A stretch of DNA of 62,584 bases from Capsulimonadaceae bacterium (GTDB lineage: Bacteria; Armatimonadota; Armatimonadia; Armatimonadales; Capsulimonadaceae). The stretch is from positions 1-62,584 of the forward strand of contig JARLGU010000055.1 of assembly GCA_031292625.1 (NCBI GenBank), read 5' to 3'. Numbering within the stretch: position 1 is the first letter of the stretch; every line of letters begins with the position of its first letter. The notes under the pieces were generated by a model. It did not search any database. It worked only from the letters and a program-made list of their open reading frames with translations, and had not been told where the DNA came from. Of the stretch, positions 1-23,433 are shown one piece after another. Position numbers and translations under genes: made by a program.

Positions 1-281
1 CGCAACCGGCGCGGGCGGAGCGAAGACCACCGGCGTAGGCGCGACCGGCGCGGGCGGAGCGATGACCACCGGCGTTGGCGCGACCGGCGCGGGCGGAGGG
101 ACGACCACCGGCGTAGGCGCGACCGGCGCGGGCGGAGCGATGACCACCGGCGTTGGCGCAACCGGCGCGGGCGGAGCAATGACCACCGGCGTTGGCGCGA
201 CCGGCGCGGGCGGAGCAATGACCACCGGCGTTGGGACGACCGGCGCTGGCGGAGGGACAACCACCGGCGTTGGCGCGACGC
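1..281. repeat. 39-bp tandem repeat, about 7 units, continuing off the left edge
   Basis: Seven near-identical 39-bp units follow one another, differing at a few positions such as gcgatgacc versus gggacgacc. The unit is a multiple of three. On the minus strand it reads as a 13-residue proline-rich unit (PVVIAPPAPVAPT), so it lies inside the coding sequence of the WD40 gene and forms a linker. The plus-strand reading of the same repeat (Thr-Gly-Val-Gly-Ala) is a shadow. Confidence 0.9.
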
Positions 282-2478
282 CTTTCCAGTAGAGGACGAC
301 GATTGCGGGTTCTGAATATCCGTTCTCATCCGACGCGATCACGCTCACCTTGCAGTCTCGTTCAGGGATAAGCATGGAAATCGACGTGGCCGATTGACCG
401 TTGCCATGCGCAAAAGGCGTAGGGCGGCCGTCCACAAGCACACGGACATCCTTAGGCGGCGCTCCAGATGCCGTGTGGACTTCATACGAAATCGTTACGG
501 CGCTTTTCGTTACGAAGGAGCCGGATTCCGGCGATGAGATCAGCACGACCGGCGGATGCTTGATCGCTACGACATTTGCCGGCGGTTCCACGACCGGGAC
601 GGAGTTAGCGCCGGAATGCTTGCGCGCTTCGTCATTGGCTTCGCTCACCGCCTTATCCTCGTCGAGCGTCGTGAGCACCCTGGCAAGCACGTCGGGCCGG
701 TAGTACCGGTTGCGGAAGCGGGACGCGCCGAAAAAGTCGTAGTCGGCGGCGCTCTTGGGCCGCTCGACCATCCAGCCGATCAGGTCTTCTCCGCCGGCGG
801 AGCAGTCGTAGTAACCGGATGGCGTATGTAGTACCCATCGTGCGTAGTCGGCCTGCGGAAAGAAGCTGCAGATTTCGATTAGATCCGGGAGGCGATACCA
901 GCGCACCGTGCCGTCGCCAAGCGTCGCAACCGCAACATTGGCGTCATGGGAGACGTTGACATGGTAGACCGGCGCGGGCACATCGATCCGGAAAACAAAG
1001 TGCGCGGCGTCCTTGTTTTGCAAGACACCCGAGTAGAGGGACCACGCGGTCCCGACGACAAACGTCCTTGCGTCGCTTGCGAAGGCGTGGCAGTACGCAA
1101 TCTCGTTGGACCTGTCGCCGGTCTGGTTGGGGAAGCTAAACTGCCGTCCGTTTACGCGAATGCCGCCAACGGTGTTGGAAGAGACCTCGGCATTTGGCAC
1201 GGATGTGACTGGAGGAGACAGATCCTTGCAGCGCGCCGCTGCCTCGTTTGCCGAAAAGGTCAGTGACGACCGATCGCGCATCGAAAATCGAAGACCGCCG
1301 GACGGACGGACGATTCCAATCGTCGCGGCGTCCCCGGACAAAAGCAGGTCCGGCTGGTCGGCGCGGTTGTCGATAATTCCCGCGTCCTGGAATATGTGCA
1401 TCTTCCTGTCCGAATCGATGAAGCCCAGACGCGGGCTCTCGCAGGCGAAGAGGACGATTTCGGCATTGATCGGGGCAAGTTGCGTGATGCCGCCATTGAC
1501 CGGCTCGCTATCCTGCGGGCGGTCGGACATAAAATTGGGCCACGTGCGCACGACGCAAGCTTTCCGCTCACGCGTCGATTGCTGCCCCGCGTATAACGTA
1601 CCGTTCGCCGACCACGCGACGACGCTGAACACGCTGGTTTCCGTAGCATTAAGGGTCGAGACGACGGAAAGTTTAGGAATCGAGAAAATCGTAATTCTGC
1701 CGGAGTCCGCATAACCGACCGCGACGTGCTTGCCATCGGGTGAAAAGCGCGCGGAAAACGGCGTATGCTCCAGCGTCGTTTGTGAGATCTGTCTCAGGTT
1801 GTCGTCGTAGAGCCGCAGAGTGTGGTCGATGCCGCCCGCCACGATGATCCCTGTCCTCGCAAAATCCAGGGCGTAGATGCTGCCCGTGAAGCTGGCGTCG
1901 CTTGCGATCTCCTTGTAATGGCCGGTCTCATAGAGCCTGATGCCGCTGCTTCCGAGCGCGACCGCGATCTTGCCGCCGTCAGGACTGTACGCTAGGGAAA
2001 GAGGCACGTTGGGCAGACCGGAGATAACCGCAGCGGATGCGCCTGTTTGGCGATCGTAAATGTAAACGTCGAAGAGCGGGTGGTTGACGGTCGAATCTGG
2101 ATCGGATGTCCAGCCAGCGCAGGCGATCCGGCTGCCATCGGGACTGATCGACACCGCATAAAGCTGCCCGATGTTGCCGCCGCCGATCGGAGGGCGGATC
2201 GTTCTTAGGAGTTGACCGGATTCGAGGCTCCAGACGCGAACGGTCTTGTCATCGGATGCGGTTGCAAGATAGCGCTTATCCCGGTCGATGGACACGGCAT
2301 TGATGTTCGCCGAGTGCATCCCGTTTTCCAGACGTAGAAATGGGCCTCCGTCTTCCTTCGCCGCTCCCAGCGCAGAACTACCACCGATGAGGGCGAAGAT
2401 GACAGCGAGCATAAAGAGTGCGCGCTTTGGTCCATCAAAAAATGCCATTGTCGTAAGCAGCGTAGGGGCGACCGCCAT
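1..2478 (-). CDS. Secreted WD40-repeat protein with proline-rich linker, C-terminus off the window; probable caspase-family (orthocaspase) protein
   Basis: An uninterrupted minus-strand frame runs from ATG 2478 (alternative ATG 2448; an in-frame TGA lies just upstream) to the window edge, about 826 codons. The N-terminus carries a Sec signal (hydrophobic LFMLAVIFALIGG, then SALGA). Beta-propeller repeats follow, with typical WD signatures such as ATASDDKTVRVWSLESG and FSPDGKHVAVG. After the propeller comes a segment with GYYDCSAGGEDLIGW and FRNRYYRPDVLARVL, then an Ig-like part (VLISSPESGSF) and the 13-residue Pro/Ala/Val repeats. As I recall it, that order (WD40, GYYD..GEDLIGW, FRxRxYRPDV, Ig-like) precedes the p20 caspase domain in bacterial WD40-caspase proteins. 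The caspase domain would lie beyond base 1 and is therefore inferred, not seen. An alternative is a WD40 scaffold with a different effector domain. Confidence 0.85.
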   Translation of the reverse strand, partial: MAVAPTLLTTMAFFDGPKRALFMLAVIFALIGGSSALGAAKEDGGPFLRLENGMHSANINAVSIDRDKRYLATASDDKTVRVWSLESGQLLRTIRPPIGGGNIGQLYAVSISPDGSRIACAGWTSDPDSTVNHPLFDVYIYDRQTGASAAVISGLPNVPLSLAYSPDGGKIAVALGSSGIRLYETGHYKEIASDASFTGSIYALDFARTGIIVAGGIDHTLRLYDDNLRQISQTTLEHTPFSARFSPDGKHVAVGYADSGRITIFSIPKLSVVSTLNATETSVFSVVAWSANGTLYAGQQSTRERKACVVRTWPNFMSDRPQDSEPVNGGITQLAPINAEIVLFACESPRLGFIDSDRKMHIFQDAGIIDNRADQPDLLLSGDAATIGIVRPSGGLRFSMRDRSSLTFSANEAAARCKDLSPPVTSVPNAEVSSNTVGGIRVNGRQFSFPNQTGDRSNEIAYCHAFASDARTFVVGTAWSLYSGVLQNKDAAHFVFRIDVPAPVYHVNVSHDANVAVATLGDGTVRWYRLPDLIEICSFFPQADYARWVLHTPSGYYDCSAGGEDLIGWMVERPKSAADYDFFGASRFRNRYYRPDVLARVLTTLDEDKAVSEANDEARKHSGANSVPVVEPPANVVAIKHPPVVLISSPESGSFVTKSAVTISYEVHTASGAPPKDVRVLVDGRPTPFAHGNGQSATSISMLIPERDCKVSVIASDENGYSEPAIVVLYWKGVAPTPVVVPPPAPVVPTPVVIAPPAPVAPTPVVIAPPAPVAPTPVVIAPPAPVAPTPVVVPPPAPVAPTPVVIAPPAPVAPTPVVFAPPAPVA

Positions 2479-17522: not shown

Positions 17523-18296
17523 CGTGTATTTCCTCGCAGTGAAGAATTATACCCGAGCCGCAATCAGCCGCCGGCACGAAATCCGCGACATTCGTAAGCG
17601 TTCAGCGTTGCGTCAAGCCGGATAGCTGTTCGCTCGAAGGACGTTTTTGGAGTGGGCGGCAGGATCGAGGCTGTGCGGACGCCCCGCGGCAGAAGCCGTC
17701 TTAATGGCGGAAGCCGCGCGCAGGTAGTCGTTCACGATTGGAGAGCGAATTAGGACTCTCGCTCGGTGTGCGTTTAGCGATTGGTTATGCTAAATTGTAC
17801 AGGACGTAGAGTGTGTGTAATAGACTGGCGCACTGCGGGAAAGATTCAGGACGGCTCGTGCCGCCGGGGCATTTTTTTGCTCACGCATCGTTCACGGCGG
17901 TGATTTACGATGCTTCGTCAACACGCGTACGGCCTTTTGCCGCCATCGTCTGATCCCAGCGCATATCGTGAAGCAGTGAATGCGCTGTGACGGCCCTTTT
18001 TCAAATACGGCCAGCCCGGCCAGAGAGCGCATCTTAATCCTCATCTTCTCTTACAAAGCGAAAGTCCCACGAAAATCAGGGCATGCTGCAGATTTGTCGG
18101 CGTAAAAGTTCTTGGGTTTGTGCGTTTAAAATTGTCGATGAGAGTGTAAATATACGCACATATGGTCGTGAGGCGTCATTTTTCTTCCTCGATCCATTTG
18201 TTTAACCGCGTTCCGGATTCAATTCATAGCCGTGAGTAACCCGGTAGCGGCGCCGGTCTGACGCCGTGACACGTATCGCCAAGGAGTCGCGTTTCG
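17523..18296. other. Long divergent intergenic region with promoter, repeat and hairpin
   Basis: No gene was recognised in these 774 bases. A TATAAT-type -10 for the M16 operon lies on the minus strand (ATTATA at 17546-17551). Copy 2 of the 79-bp repeat is at 17868-17946. A hairpin CAGCGCAT/ATGCGCTG spans 17957-17987. The following 300 bases before the first island gene are less GC-rich than the surroundings and may hold the island promoter, but no box pair stands out. Confidence 0.5.
17868..17946 (+). repeat. 79-bp repeat family, copy 2 (left flank of the island)
   Basis: Starts with GGCATTTTTTTGC and ends with TTTTGCCGCCAT. Over the 66 bases after the T-run it matches 23355-23433 at 50 positions (76%, hand-counted) with no indels. 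The T-run forms the loop of a stem-loop with flanking CGTG/CACG. It lies 350 bp before the first of five island genes, in direct orientation to the copy that follows the last one. Confidence 0.75.
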
Positions 18297-18998
18297 ATGC
18301 TACGAACGAGCAAAACATTTCGTCCGCACACAATAGAGCGTCCGTACACCCCGAAGGAATGCGCAATCATTCGCGACGTTCCGCGACCTGAGTGGACGCC
18401 AGTAAGCAAAGAATTTTGGATGCCGTTGTGCGCCATCCTTTTGGGAGGCTGGCGGTGCAAGACGCTTTTGATAAATAATTTGCAATCGAGCGGCGCTTGG
18501 CCAATGGGTGTGATTGTGTTTTCGACAGTGCTTGTCCTTCTTACTGTGGCAGCGACCTATTACTACGTTCTGGGCTCGTTTGGCGATATATTCGACAATA
18601 TCGAGATCCAACTCTCGACGCAGCAGACGCCAAATCTTATTCTAAAAGACGGAATGGCCGTCGTGGAGACTTATGAGGTCTTCAATAACGACATTCGCGT
18701 GGTCGGCAGGGGCTCCAATTCTTCGTTATGCTACCTTGTCGCGCTTGATCCCAGGCACACGCTGTATGTTGACGGCCGGTTCTTGCGCGACGTCGGCACG
18801 TCGTGGCCGTGCAGCAAGTTCGAGGTTGTCTGGACCCGCGAAATGCGACACGTGATCGCAATCAACTGCCTGGGCGGTCCGATTGGCGCCATGCGGCCGG
18901 CCACGGCGTCGATAAGCCGCAAGGATCAACGCATTCTGTCCGATGGCGTCGTGGTCTTGTTTGGCTCCATTGAGAATCTTACGGAAAAGCTCCGATAA
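18297..18998 (+). CDS. Membrane protein of an unrecognised paralogous family, member 1
   Basis: 233 aa, ATG 18297 with AAGGAG 10 nt upstream. I recognise no family. The N-terminal cytoplasmic stretch contains TFRPHTIERPYTPKE. One or two hydrophobic segments follow (PMGVIVFSTVLVLLTVAATYYYV, split by length; residues ~75-100), then a soluble domain. That domain shares a core with the proteins at 19057 and 20691: DGMAVVETYEVFNNDIR, YLVALDPRHTLYVDGR, WPCSKFEVVWTRE, INCLGGPI and a final GSIENL. It is the most diverged of the three. It is first in the repeat-flanked island. The function is unknown. Confidence 0.8.
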   Translation: MLRTSKTFRPHTIERPYTPKECAIIRDVPRPEWTPVSKEFWMPLCAILLGGWRCKTLLINNLQSSGAWPMGVIVFSTVLVLLTVAATYYYVLGSFGDIFDNIEIQLSTQQTPNLILKDGMAVVETYEVFNNDIRVVGRGSNSSLCYLVALDPRHTLYVDGRFLRDVGTSWPCSKFEVVWTREMRHVIAINCLGGPIGAMRPATASISRKDQRILSDGVVVLFGSIENLTEKLR

Positions 18999-19056
18999 GA
19001 GCGACGATATCGCGACCGCTACGCGACCTGAACTTTGCGCGAAAGGAGCGCCGCCT

Positions 19057-19812
19057 ATGAAGATGCCTGTCGAAATGTCTTACCAGCAGCCGGATACGTT
19101 TCGTCACATGACGGATGAGGAGCGCCGGCGTTTCCAGAACGTCTTGGATTCGCAGACGCCGTCCAAAATGGCCGTCAGTTGGTATTTGCTGAGGCCGTCG
19201 ATACTGTACGGTGTGCTAGTTCTTGTCAGCGTCGCTTGTTCCGTCTATTTTATTGCGACGAACCACCATGATGGCGGGCGGCTTATCGCGGGGATCGCGT
19301 TGGCGTCGCTCGCGCTTTGCGCGTCGTTCAGCCTTCTCGACAGCCTCAGCACGCTGCGCACTATCCAGAGTATTGGGCAAGCCGACCGCCAGCCTCATCC
19401 GGAGCGCGTGTTACGTGAGACGAAAGAGCTTTTGGAGGACGGGTATGTCCTCGTCCACACGTATGCGGTTTACCAGGACGATGTTCGGGCGATTAAGGAG
19501 GCCGGCGGCGGCCTCAGCTATTTGGTTGCGCTGGATCAAACGCACACCTTGTTCGTTGACGGCGTCGTTGTCCAAGATGTCGCACTCTTTGATCCGGATT
19601 ATGGCGAATGGGAATGGCCGTGCAGCCAATTCGAGCTCACAACCACGCGCAAGCATGGCTATGCGTTGGAGATCCGTTGCTCGGGCGAGCAAATCGTTCC
19701 CCTGATGGGAGGCAGGTTTGATCCCGGCAAGCACGACGAGATTCGAGATCGCTCGGTCGTCACTTTGGGCATGTCCATCGACGATTGCGAACGCGTTATG
19801 ACATCCGGGTAG
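19057..19812 (+). CDS. Membrane protein of an unrecognised paralogous family, member 2
   Basis: 251 aa, ATG 19057 with AAGGAG upstream. Two membrane helices (ILYGVLVLVSVACSVYFIA near residue 55 and RLIAGIALASLALCASF near 80) follow an N-terminal TFRHMTDEERRRFQNVL element. The soluble C-terminal domain has the family core: DGYVLVHTYAVYQDDVR, YLVALDQTHTLFVDG, EWPCSQFELTTTRKHGY, IRCSGEQIV and MSIDDCER. The conserved pattern YLVALDxTHTLFVDG then WPCSxFExxTTRK may be a ligand- or partner-binding fold. It starts 58 bp after member 1 and is probably in the same transcript. No known family recognised. Confidence 0.82.
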   Translation: MKMPVEMSYQQPDTFRHMTDEERRRFQNVLDSQTPSKMAVSWYLLRPSILYGVLVLVSVACSVYFIATNHHDGGRLIAGIALASLALCASFSLLDSLSTLRTIQSIGQADRQPHPERVLRETKELLEDGYVLVHTYAVYQDDVRAIKEAGGGLSYLVALDQTHTLFVDGVVVQDVALFDPDYGEWEWPCSQFELTTTRKHGYALEIRCSGEQIVPLMGGRFDPGKHDEIRDRSVVTLGMSIDDCERVMTSG

Positions 19813-19964
19813 GCCACGCAGACCGGCGCAGGGGCGATTTACGCGGGAGGCGATACAGGGCATAACGCAGATGGGCGGCGCAAATCCCGGATGAGGCAAG
19901 CTGGCTTATCCCGCGTGTTTCTCTGCGTCTCGTCCCACTGCAAATCCCCAAGGAGGTCTGTTTG

Positions 19965-20465
19965 ATGTCCGTCGATAATATCGAGTGCGTGAGTAATGCG
20001 GTTGGTTCGGTGCGGTATGCGACGCCGGAGGAGGTGTTGGCGCACCAAGGCGCGGAACCGCTCAGTGAGGACTACCACGATGAGGAAACCGGATTGTCGT
20101 ATCGCATCGAAGGTCTGGCGAAGTTTCACGCAAAAGTGGCCGCGATGGCGGCGGCGGCAGAGCTTTCGGAGCGCGTCCGGCGCGGCGCGATTCTCGTCAA
20201 GGATATGAGCGGCGAGCAGTTCATCCCGACGGATGAGGAGATCGAGGCGGCGGTGCTTGCATCGAAGTGCGTCATCCAGCCCAAGCTTGGCGAGATGCAG
20301 TGGCTGGCGACGCTCGGGCAATCCGATCTGTTGGCGCGGCTTTATCTGCGCATCCTGATCTGCAACCGTGAGATCGGCGACGGAAGCGCGGCGGCAGCGG
20401 TCGAAAGTGCCCGGGAGGCGCTTGACGGCCGCCCTTTCTCCGCGACTACTACGAATTCTGCGTAA
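19965..20465 (+). CDS. Small acidic protein with -1 slippery site; candidate tail-assembly-chaperone-like protein
   Basis: 166 aa in the zero frame, ATG 19965 with AGGAGG 8 nt upstream. It is mostly helical. The C-terminal half has EEIEAAVLASKCVIQPKLGEMQ followed by LARLYLRIL. That order (residues declared as outcomes of a -PKL- turn, then a short helix with aliphatic spacing) resembles phage tail-assembly chaperones of the XkdN/gpG type; this is a weak similarity by eye. Eleven codons before its stop is the heptamer CCCTTTC in the correct reading phase (see 20432-20438). After it the -1 frame stays open for 40 codons of plausible protein. A sequencing or natural frameshift is the simpler alternative. 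Confidence 0.7.
   Translation: MSVDNIECVSNAVGSVRYATPEEVLAHQGAEPLSEDYHDEETGLSYRIEGLAKFHAKVAAMAAAAELSERVRRGAILVKDMSGEQFIPTDEEIEAAVLASKCVIQPKLGEMQWLATLGQSDLLARLYLRILICNREIGDGSAAAAVESAREALDGRPFSATTTNSA
20432..20438 (+). promoter_or_regulatory. Candidate -1 ribosomal frameshift site C_CCT_TTC
   Basis: The zero frame reads CGC CCT TTC TCC, so bases 20432-20438 are X_XXY_YYZ with X=C, Y=T, Z=C. After a tandem -1 slip the ribosome reads CCC TTT CTC CGC. A clear downstream pseudoknot was not established by eye. Confidence 0.5.
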
Positions 20466-20560
20466 ACAAGCTGCACAGGTTGCCGTCGGAGGTTGCCCGC
20501 GACTGTCCGGATTTATCCGAACGCGAAGTAATCTTGTGCTTCGCGGCGGCGTGGGGGTAG
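20435..20560 (+). CDS. -1 frame extension of the 19965 gene
   Basis: Read after the slip, this frame encodes PFLRDYYEFCVNKLHRL, continuing with PSEVARDCPDLSEREVILC and AAAWG, then TAG (20558-20560). Codon choice and amino-acid composition look coding (Tyr, Phe, Glu, Leu spaced as in helices), unlike the zero-frame tail SATTTNSA. The fused product would be 198 aa. There is no independent start or ribosome binding site for this frame, so it is only translated by frameshift, or the gene is one frame broken by an indel. Confidence 0.55.
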   Translation, partial: FLRDYYEFCVNKLHRLPSEVARDCPDLSEREVILCFAAAWG

Positions 20561-20690
20561 GTGCGGACGGCGGGGCGAACTTCGGGCGCGGCCACTTAGT
20601 TTTCCGCGGCCTTTCCGGTTTCGGATGCCGGAGGTGAGTTTCTCAACACGATGCGACGGTTTTTCGTTAGCACATAGGAGGACATGAAAA

Positions 20691-21527
20691 ATGGAGCTGA
20701 CCATTAGCGAAGACTATCAACCGCAGGAGACGTTTCGTCCGTTGACGCTCGAAGAGCGGGCGGAGATCGAACGCTCTCTCGTGCCGGATAAACCTTACGT
20801 GCCGCCGCCGCTCTGGACATACCTAATTTCGCCCCTCGGTTGGCCCTTGACGCTGGTTGGCAGTCTCTGGGCGGCTTACTACTTTGGCTTCCGCGATTGC
20901 CGGGGCTGGCATATATATGTTGCGCTTTTGAGCATTATCCCCATGGCGATCGCTGCATTGCAAACGGTTATCGTTGCGGGTGATTTGTTTCGTGAACTTC
21001 GCTATCGACTTCAGTCCGCAAGCCGGGAACGGAGGCCCGCAGCCGATGTTGCAAAAAGTGTCGAGGAATCTCGGATTCAATGGGCTCGCGAGATACTGGA
21101 TGACGGTTATGCGGTTATCCGCACATTCACGGTTTACGATAAGGACGTGCAGACGATCTCCGTCAATGAGGACATCGATCCGAGCTATTTGGTTGCTCTC
21201 GATAAGACACACACGTTATTCGTCAATGCCCGGCTAGTAGCTGATAAGAATGTCACCTGGACATACGATTATGACGATGAGGATGACGATGACGAAAGGG
21301 AGAAGTGGCCGTCTACCTTGTTCGAGATCGTCACTACGCGTAAAAATGGGTATTTTCTCGAGTTCAATTGTCTTGGCGAGCCGATCGAAAGCGGTGACAG
21401 TCACGACGTAATCGACGACGACGTATTCAACGAGGACTACGCTGTCCTGAGCGGATCGATCGACTCGTGCGTGGACATCCTCACTTTGCCGATTTTGAAT
21501 GAGAAAAAGAAGACAAGTTGGTGGTGA
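20691..21527 (+). CDS. Membrane protein of an unrecognised paralogous family, member 3
   Basis: 278 aa. ATG 20691 follows AGGAGG (20676-20681) at 9 nt; the nearer ATG 20684 is out of frame. It is built as member 2: TFRPLTLEERAEIERSL, two membrane helices (WPLTLVGSLWAAYYFGF and VALLSIIPMAIAALQTV, residues ~50-100), a short charged linker, then the family core DGYAVIRTFTVYDKDVQ, YLVALDKTHTLFVNAR, WPSTLFEIVTTRKNGYF, FNCLGEPIE and GSIDSCVDIL. It differs by an acidic insert (DYDDEDDDDERE) between the last two core blocks. It stands between the chaperone-like gene and the 574-aa gene. The function is unknown. Confidence 0.82.
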   Translation: MELTISEDYQPQETFRPLTLEERAEIERSLVPDKPYVPPPLWTYLISPLGWPLTLVGSLWAAYYFGFRDCRGWHIYVALLSIIPMAIAALQTVIVAGDLFRELRYRLQSASRERRPAADVAKSVEESRIQWAREILDDGYAVIRTFTVYDKDVQTISVNEDIDPSYLVALDKTHTLFVNARLVADKNVTWTYDYDDEDDDDEREKWPSTLFEIVTTRKNGYFLEFNCLGEPIESGDSHDVIDDDVFNEDYAVLSGSIDSCVDILTLPILNEKKKTSWW

Positions 21528-21606
21528 GCGTCCGACTGAGCGATGCGGATGTCGAAGGGCATGACGACGGGACGGAGGGGTGAATGAGAATAGGAGATAG
21601 CTGAGT

Positions 21607-23331
21607 ATGGGACTGGATAAAGGCGATGAAAAAGCCGAAAACGCATTGCTTGGGTTTGCGGACAGCGCTACGTTTGGCCTCTCTGGCATTGCGTCACACG
21701 CGTTGTATCGGGCAATGTACCATGAGGATTTCGAGACCGACACGTCAAGTCGGGAATACATGATAGGCGAAGCCGTTGAGGGAGCTGGCGAGGTCGTGTT
21801 TGGCGGGCCCACAAGTTTATTGAAGTATGCGGCTCGAAAGGTCGCATTCAAAGAGGGAAAACGTTTAGCAACGGAATCCGCAGCTAGGGAGCTCTCCGAA
21901 GCAACGATCGCCAGGCGAAAGTCTATTGCGGAAGGACTCAAAAGTGCCGACAAAGCCAAAAGGGCGATCGCCCGAAAGGCTGCTGAAGTGTATGGCAATA
22001 AGGTTCTGGGAGACCGCGCTCGCGATTATGCCAGAAGGCAAGCGCGACCTGTCGCACAGCTTGTGAAGGGACTTCAGGAGGAGATCGCGAAGAACGCGAC
22101 AAAGTCAGGAATTGCTGCTGCTGCGCGCCATGCGGTAGCTACTCGTTCGCTGAGAGCGATTTCCGGTTTCCAAGAACGTTTGGAAAAGCGTGAACTCAAG
22201 GCCGTCACAAAGTTCATAATGGAGAGAGCGCGTAGAAAAGGCAAAGAGCTGTCGAAAGAGGAGGCGGAGAAGCTAGCAGAGGTAATAGATCCTCAGCTCC
22301 ATCACTCAGCCGTTCTTGTCGGTCATCACGGCATCGCTGGGCACTTTGGACCGGTTTCAGCGCTGGTTCCCTCACTTGCGTTGCCAAAGGAAATAAACGG
22401 ATTGGCGATGTTTACTCGCGTTGCGAGAAACCGCGCCGTGCACGATATGTATCAAACTCGGGACTCTGCGTTCGAACGACTTGTACGTCCCTCGTTCCTT
22501 CTAGCGCCGGCTCGCATCACACGGGATGTTTACAACTTGGTAGCTCCGAGTTTGCGTCATGCCCTTTCGGCAGCGCATGCTAATATCCGACCATCCCATT
22601 CTCCCTCCTCTCCCAAACGTCCGGTCGCACACGCCTCCGGCGAGCCGGAGGGCATCGAACGGGACGCACAGGCCGTTCTTCGTTGGCATAGGGCGTATGA
22701 AAGCGGCGTCGACTACCGGACGGGGCAGCCGTTTGCCAGCCCCAAGGCAAAGGCGGAGGCTGCCCGGCATATCGCGGCGGCACGGACCGACCTCGACCGG
22801 CGGCAGTGGGCGCACAGCTTGCCGCGCGGGAAGAACCCGCTTAAGCAGCCCGTGAGCGCATCCCTCGAAGAGGTGTTCAAGCAAACCAAGGTCCCGTCCC
22901 AAATGCGGCGAAAATGGTCGCTTGCCGAGACCGGGTCCGCCGGAGCCATTTCAAGCGCTTCCAGGGCGGCGCACGCACGCAACCTTATCTCGGGGGCTCG
23001 CCTCGCTGCCGCAAACCGGCAGCGCAGTGCGCCACCTGCCGCCGGCGTTGCGACGAGCGGACACGCGAGGCGGATCGCGCGCAACGCCAGCCGCGGGCCG
23101 GTGAAAGCGAAGCCCGGCGGCGAGCGCGCGGTCGGCACGAAAGCTGGCTCGGTTACGTCCGTTGCAGCGCAAGCTGAGCGGCGGCGCTTGGAGCGGCTCG
23201 ACGCGATTGCGAAGCGTCCGCTGGTCGTGAACGTCTCCCTCGACCGCAAAATCGTACAGACCGTCAAAACAGAGATGATTGACGATGTTCTTAAGGTCTT
23301 TGCCGAAGAAGTTTACGCGAGCAGACGATAG
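21607..23331 (+). CDS. 574-aa Ala/Arg-rich protein, unrecognised; tape-measure-like or polymorphic-toxin-like
   Basis: ATG 21607 with AGGAG ~10 nt upstream. The N-terminus (LLGFADSATFGLSGIASHAL) recalls the D-TFGL-G stretch that opens many secreted or toxin-type and phage structural proteins. Residues ~60-260 are long charged helices (RKSIAEGLKSADKAKRAIA, KGKELSKEEAEKLAEVI). From ~residue 325 the protein becomes proline- and alanine-rich with RTGQPFASPKAKAEAARHI and LDRRQWAHSLPRGKNP. The last 40 residues (LVVNVSLDRKIVQTVKTEM) look like a folded cap. Base composition changes sharply inside the gene (52% GC at 21841-21900, 80% at 23041-23100, counted by hand), suggesting fusion or recent assembly. 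No catalytic motif was identified. Confidence 0.8.
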   Translation: MGLDKGDEKAENALLGFADSATFGLSGIASHALYRAMYHEDFETDTSSREYMIGEAVEGAGEVVFGGPTSLLKYAARKVAFKEGKRLATESAARELSEATIARRKSIAEGLKSADKAKRAIARKAAEVYGNKVLGDRARDYARRQARPVAQLVKGLQEEIAKNATKSGIAAAARHAVATRSLRAISGFQERLEKRELKAVTKFIMERARRKGKELSKEEAEKLAEVIDPQLHHSAVLVGHHGIAGHFGPVSALVPSLALPKEINGLAMFTRVARNRAVHDMYQTRDSAFERLVRPSFLLAPARITRDVYNLVAPSLRHALSAAHANIRPSHSPSSPKRPVAHASGEPEGIERDAQAVLRWHRAYESGVDYRTGQPFASPKAKAEAARHIAAARTDLDRRQWAHSLPRGKNPLKQPVSASLEEVFKQTKVPSQMRRKWSLAETGSAGAISSASRAAHARNLISGARLAAANRQRSAPPAAGVATSGHARRIARNASRGPVKAKPGGERAVGTKAGSVTSVAAQAERRRLERLDAIAKRPLVVNVSLDRKIVQTVKTEMIDDVLKVFAEEVYASRR

Positions 23332-23354
23332 GAGAGAGACCGAAGAGGCGCCGT

Positions 23355-23433
23355 GGCATTTTTTTGCCCGCGCCTCGTTCACGGCGTCGATCGAAGAAGC
23401 CGCGTCGACATACGTACGGTGTTTTGCCGCCAT
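23355..23433 (+). repeat. 79-bp repeat family, copy 3 (right flank of the island)
   Basis: Begins 24 bp after the stop of the 574-aa gene with GGCATTTTTTTGC, flanked by GAGGCGC/GCGCCTC, which form a stem closing the T-run as loop. It ends in TTTTGCCGCCAT like copy 2. A terminator role for the hairpin is possible. In the minus frame it encodes MAAKHRTYVDAASSIDAV, similar in copies 1 and 2, but copy 2 has stops there. Confidence 0.75.

Follow-up and report, generated by a model that had tools for sequence, protein, structure and literature searches.

Gene content of the block

The window analyzed here is the whole 62,584-nt stretch of contig JARLGU010000055.1, from the 5.8-Mb draft genome of a Capsulimonadaceae bacterium. 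Positions 18297-23331 hold a block of five ORFs that lies in a chromosomal setting, flanked by genes for an M16 peptidase and an M20 amidohydrolase. The M16 peptidase is most similar to sequences from metagenome-assembled genomes labeled Armatimonadota or Chthonomonadales, and the assignment to the phylum is firm. The third of these ORFs encodes a small acidic protein and runs into an open -1 frame. The features of the block and its borders are as follows.

17862..17946, plus strand: left copy of an 85-nt dispersed repeat
18297..18998, plus strand: ORFan membrane protein A, a paralogue of B and C, with a transmembrane segment by hydropathy
19057..19812, plus strand: ORFan membrane protein B, in the position expected for a major tail protein gene
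19950..19956, plus strand: Shine-Dalgarno sequence AAGGAGG, 8 nt upstream of ATG 19965
19965..20465, plus strand: zero-frame ORF for a gpG-like product of 166 aa, ATG 19965 to TAA 20463-20465
20413..20418, plus strand: Shine-Dalgarno-like GGGAGG, 13 nt upstream of the heptamer, a possible frameshift stimulator
20432-20438, plus strand: slippery heptamer CCCTTTC, phased C_CCT_TTC in the zero frame
20438..20560, plus strand: -1 extension encoding a T-like domain, 40 codons plus TAG
20691..21527, plus strand: ORFan membrane protein C, a paralogue of A and B
21607..23331, plus strand: basic protein of 574 aa, net charge +39, in which only the C-terminus is tape-measure-like
23349..23433, plus strand: right copy of the 85-nt repeat

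Membrane proteins A, B and C have no credible relative among 291 genomes of the phylum. A membrane protein match in one genome (G004) was set aside as spurious-looking, as it falls in the frame of an M16-like peptidase. A low-confidence model of a membrane paralogue (pLDDT 59) shows a C-terminal domain of seven or eight strands and a helix, and it matches nothing in the PDB. The 574-aa protein, which the first-pass annotation had placed two genes downstream of the frameshift, is indeed encoded there. It lacks any hydrophobic segment, and its C-terminal 32 residues are 56% identical (E 5e-8) to those of a 703-aa tape-measure-like protein of the prophage in a second genome, G002; outside these 32 residues it matches nothing. 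The gene with the -1 extension has an ORFan membrane protein gene and no recognizable tube protein gene on its 5' side, and on its 3' side, after one gene, the protein with the tape-measure-like C-terminus. Capsid, portal, terminase and tail-tube genes were not recognized in the block or in the ten neighboring genes scanned, and models of defense systems gave no match.

The 85-nt repeat that borders the block on both sides is matched in the genome at least 62 times, frequently in clusters with a period of about 93 nt (contigs C21, C34, C10 and C20), and has no match in Rfam. No genome of the family turned up with both flanking genes (M16 and M20) together, so no clean empty-site comparison is available. 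At the left end of the window (1-2447, minus strand), a WD40-like repeat protein carries a proline-rich tandem repeat tail (VAPTPVVIAPPAP) that runs off the contig end.

A slippery heptamer in a short frame overlap

In the -1 frame, a stop at 20423-20425 is followed by open sequence from 20426 to the next stop, TAG 20558-20560; the translation is LRDYYEFCVNKLHRLPSEVARDCPDLSEREVILCFAAAWG*. The first-pass annotation had described a zero-frame C_CCT_TTC, a -1 frame open to 20560 and a fused product of 198 aa, and all three hold in the sequence, the fusion consisting of 158 + 40 aa. The zero-frame product of 166 aa has a net charge of -11. The heptamer falls within the stretch in which both frames are open, which is no longer than 12 zero-frame codons (about 20427-20462). 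In-frame X_XXY_YYZ heptamers (Y = A or T) occur 8 times in the 18,343 codons of the window ORFs, which gives a chance of about 0.5% of finding one in a 12-codon overlap. Of the eight, just one besides CCCTTTC has a -1 frame that passes the zero-frame stop, and the ORF concerned is spurious, covering the beginning of the WD40-like gene.

Upstream of the heptamer, GGGAGG would form a duplex of -10.3 kcal/mol with a 16S rRNA tail assumed to be standard, an energy reached at 1.1% of in-frame positions in the window genes. The first-pass annotation had also proposed folding the bases downstream of the heptamer; no significant structure came out, the RNA folding no better than shuffled sequence by a method that excludes pseudoknots.

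Conservation of the site and of the extension

Close relatives of the gene were not found in public collections (viral_contigs; genome_contigs with a chaperone profile; tblastn of phages), and the comparison is therefore limited to four loci in genomes of the phylum (G002, G003, G037 and G207). G002 and G003 represent two other genera of the same family as the window organism, and their proteins are 34% and 35% identical, respectively, to the fused window protein. The sites compared, other than that of the more distant G207, are as follows.

L003 1908-1914: G003 heptamer C_CCT_TTG, in phase near the ORF end, at the aligned Pro codon
L004 1420-1414, minus strand: G002 heptamer C_CCT_TTG, in phase near the ORF end, at the aligned Pro codon
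L027:1435-2004: G037 fused chaperone homologue, one continuous frame

Behind the heptamer, G003 has a -1 frame of 58 codons (GNYAFRFCVERLGRLPGEV...), whose TGA overlaps the ATG of the next gene, and G002 has one of 55 codons (GVRWRAFCLKTLHTTPEAY...). The motif FC[VL]xxL...P is common to the -1 extensions of all three genera. The window and G003 extensions are 60% identical over 15 residues (E 8e-6), and the match between G002 and G003 is weaker (E 0.021). In G003, the -1 frame has a TGA directly before CCC, so that the shift must occur there or later. The spelling of DPL seen in G002 and G003 has a probability of about 1% in each, a figure that uses the codon usage of the window (CCT, 12% of Pro; TTG, 18% of Leu; GAC, 55% of Asp) and not that of G002 or G003. 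For proteins about 35% identical, silent changes in the genes should have reached saturation.

In G037, which belongs to another family of the phylum, the extension is part of a single 189-aa ORF. Residues 128-163 of this protein match the -1 frame of the window (E 3e-7, 16/40 identical), and the alignment runs through the slip point with no gap (PF|LRDYYEFCVNKL in the window, PY|VRRLYTVCVEKL in G037). The aligned codons AAC CCC TAC (C_CCC_TAC) are not slippery. The protein-like character of the -1 extension noted in the first pass is supported by its similarity both to the -1 frame of G003 and to a single-frame homologue. The first-pass annotation had reasoned that homologues with the two frames joined, or with no conserved heptamer, would speak against a frameshift. 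Joined frames occur in the distant G037 only, and heptamer and -1 extension are kept together in three genera (window, G002 and G003). The fusion in G037 speaks for the extension being real protein and leaves the conserved heptamer of the other three loci unaffected.

The more distant G207 has A_AAA_AAC in phase, a 58-codon -1 extension and a stem-loop with a 14-bp stem (-34 kcal/mol, z -5.2). Its similarity to the window protein is weak (E 1e-3) and its assignment rests largely on the shared arrangement; profile matches to sequences built into that same profile were not counted as independent support. Possible frameshift stimulators thus differ among the loci: GGGAGG in the window, further Shine-Dalgarno-like stretches in G002 and G003, and a strong stem in G207.

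Relatives in prophage tail modules

The G003 locus includes an SPP1-type portal, an SU10-type capsid and a head-tail adaptor. In both G002 and G003, the gene just 5' of the chaperone encodes a protein of roughly 155 aa (39% identical between the two), which we call a tube protein by its position only. In G207, the -1 extension ends about 25 nt before a tape-measure gene that matches several PHROG tape-measure families and Pfam TMP_3 (E 6e-10, just below the curated cut-off). In G037, a tape-measure-like ORF lies 7 nt downstream of the chaperone. The chaperone therefore stands directly 5' of a confirmed tape measure in G207 and of a tape-measure-like gene in G037; the G037 and G002 tape measures are putative assignments from length, composition and position.

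Two of these modules have unusual layouts. In the G002 prophage (L020 10441-14733), several opposite-strand genes separate the chaperone from the tape-measure-like gene, an unusual interruption of a tail module. In G003 (L019 11983-12594), the chaperone gene is followed directly by one for a 203-aa basic protein and then by tail genes. As this locus shows no long tape measure, the 203-aa protein may be a very short one.

The window chaperone itself has no Pfam, PHROG, NCBIfam or PDB match, so the recognition by tail chaperone HMM profiles envisaged in the first pass failed in all three profile collections. Tail assembly chaperones are known for low sequence similarity (PMC5009743), and for this reason a profile match helps in diagnosis but does not define the type. 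A structure of the 166-aa protein predicted without an alignment (pLDDT 44) was too poor for a structure search.

The same genome contains two other prophages. One, on contig C48 (L038, G000:C48:100000-108681), has an SU10-type capsid and is cut short by the end of the contig, 1.6 kb beyond the capsid gene. The other, on contig C17 (L039/L054), is a separate prophage with a tube-like protein and no recognizable chaperone beside it. Both were considered as possible sites of the rest of the phage, and neither holds a recognizable copy of the window chaperone.

Discussion

We conclude, with a probability of roughly 87%, that the window gene is a gpG/gpGT-type tail assembly chaperone with programmed -1 frameshifting, carried on an isolated prophage-derived fragment. 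The assignment to this chaperone type follows from where the relatives lie, in prophage tail modules and in two cases immediately 5' of a tape-measure or tape-measure-like gene. The tail-chaperone-type frameshift claimed in the first pass is upheld by the heptamer and extension in three genera, the fused G037 homologue and the phage modules of the relatives. That the frameshift is real and conserved is very probable; the slippage itself and its efficiency we infer from the sequence signals.

In the mechanism that we propose, most ribosomes would stop at TAA 20463 and yield the 166-aa protein, while a minority would slip back one base on C_CCT_TTC and yield the 198-aa protein with its T-like C-terminal domain. 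Pairing of GGGAGG with 16S rRNA probably aids the slippage. If the lambda model carries over, the 166-aa form would coat the tape measure and the 198-aa form would bring in the tail-tube protein. We take the locus to be a probable isolated remnant of a prophage, with the chaperone and a tape-measure-like gene on it.

Two other accounts of the frame change were considered. Had a once-continuous gene gained or lost a base by mutation, sequencing or assembly error, the heptamer would be a coincidence; the single frame of the distant G037 homologue fits such a history, but G002 and G003 contradict it, as two other genera change frame at the same codon with C_CCT_TTG. Moreover, CCCTTTC is not a long homopolymer, and a heptamer falling by chance in the window overlap alone is improbable, as calculated above, so that we regard an error of this kind as highly improbable. 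Equally slight is the chance that, with a real heptamer, re-initiation or transcriptional slippage rather than ribosomal frameshifting produces the extension; nothing specific speaks for it. Because the -1 frame contains no ATG, GTG or TTG before the conserved FCV motif, the extension lacks a separate site for initiation in that stretch. Known transcriptional slippage needs runs longer than the three C and three T present here.

The origin of the surrounding block is a separate matter. The first-pass annotation had suggested that a non-phage operon uses a tail-chaperone-like frameshift. It is true that no capsid, portal or tail-tube gene was recognized beside the chaperone, but this part of the claim is unsupported: both the chaperone and the C-terminus of the 574-aa protein have phage relatives, which makes a phage derivation the simplest explanation. 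Conceivably, the chaperone with its frameshift, the 574-aa protein and the three membrane proteins have been retained by the host for some cellular job, for example as a contractile or secretion-like device. The five ORFs are intact and co-directional and have plausible ribosome-binding sites, virion genes were not recognized beside them, and the chaperone gene lies among those of the membrane proteins. A recent prophage remnant, however, would look intact too, and the five-gene block was not found in any other genome searched in the phylum (291 for the chaperone and a membrane protein, 61 for the 574-aa protein), so there is no sign of long retention. We consider such domestication unlikely, and slightly more doubtful still that a phage pair of chaperone and tape-measure-like genes was taken over, with its frameshift, into a non-phage operon with three new membrane proteins. 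Most likely, we infer, the block is a prophage-derived fragment.

In lambda, a low-level shift sets the ratio between a short form, gpG, that binds the tape measure and a long form, gpGT, that recruits the tube (PMC5009743). Like the lambda gene, the window gene encodes a small acidic zero-frame protein, has an X_XXY_YYZ site close to its stop and continues into a short -1 extension; its relatives lie in tail modules, two directly 5' of a tape-measure or tape-measure-like gene. Unlike lambda, it uses CCCTTTC rather than GGGAAAG, and it shows no recognizable sequence similarity to the lambda gene and has no recognizable flanking tube protein gene. Tail chaperone genes of HK97-type prophages gave 6-7% frameshifting in a test system (PMC3711429). 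The window gene shares with that cluster of HK97-like frameshift genes the gene arrangement and a probable prophage origin; it belongs to a different sequence family and is known here from sequence, whereas the cluster was tested experimentally. The G037 chaperone has a homologous C-terminal domain in the aligned place and likewise directly precedes a tape-measure-like ORF, but it lacks both slippery site and frame change.

The arrangement is thus already known in kind, while the sequence family and the host phylum are new within the searched collections. The finding adds a chaperone family, undetected by Pfam, PHROGs and NCBIfam, in prophages of a little-studied phylum, and its members show three solutions: frameshifting at CCCTTTN, frameshifting at an A-rich site with a stem-loop, and fusion in a single frame. 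If the block were domesticated after all, it would represent a rare cellular use of the chaperone frameshift switch. A frameshift of this type can mark a tail module where sequence search fails, which aids the annotation of unknown phage tails.
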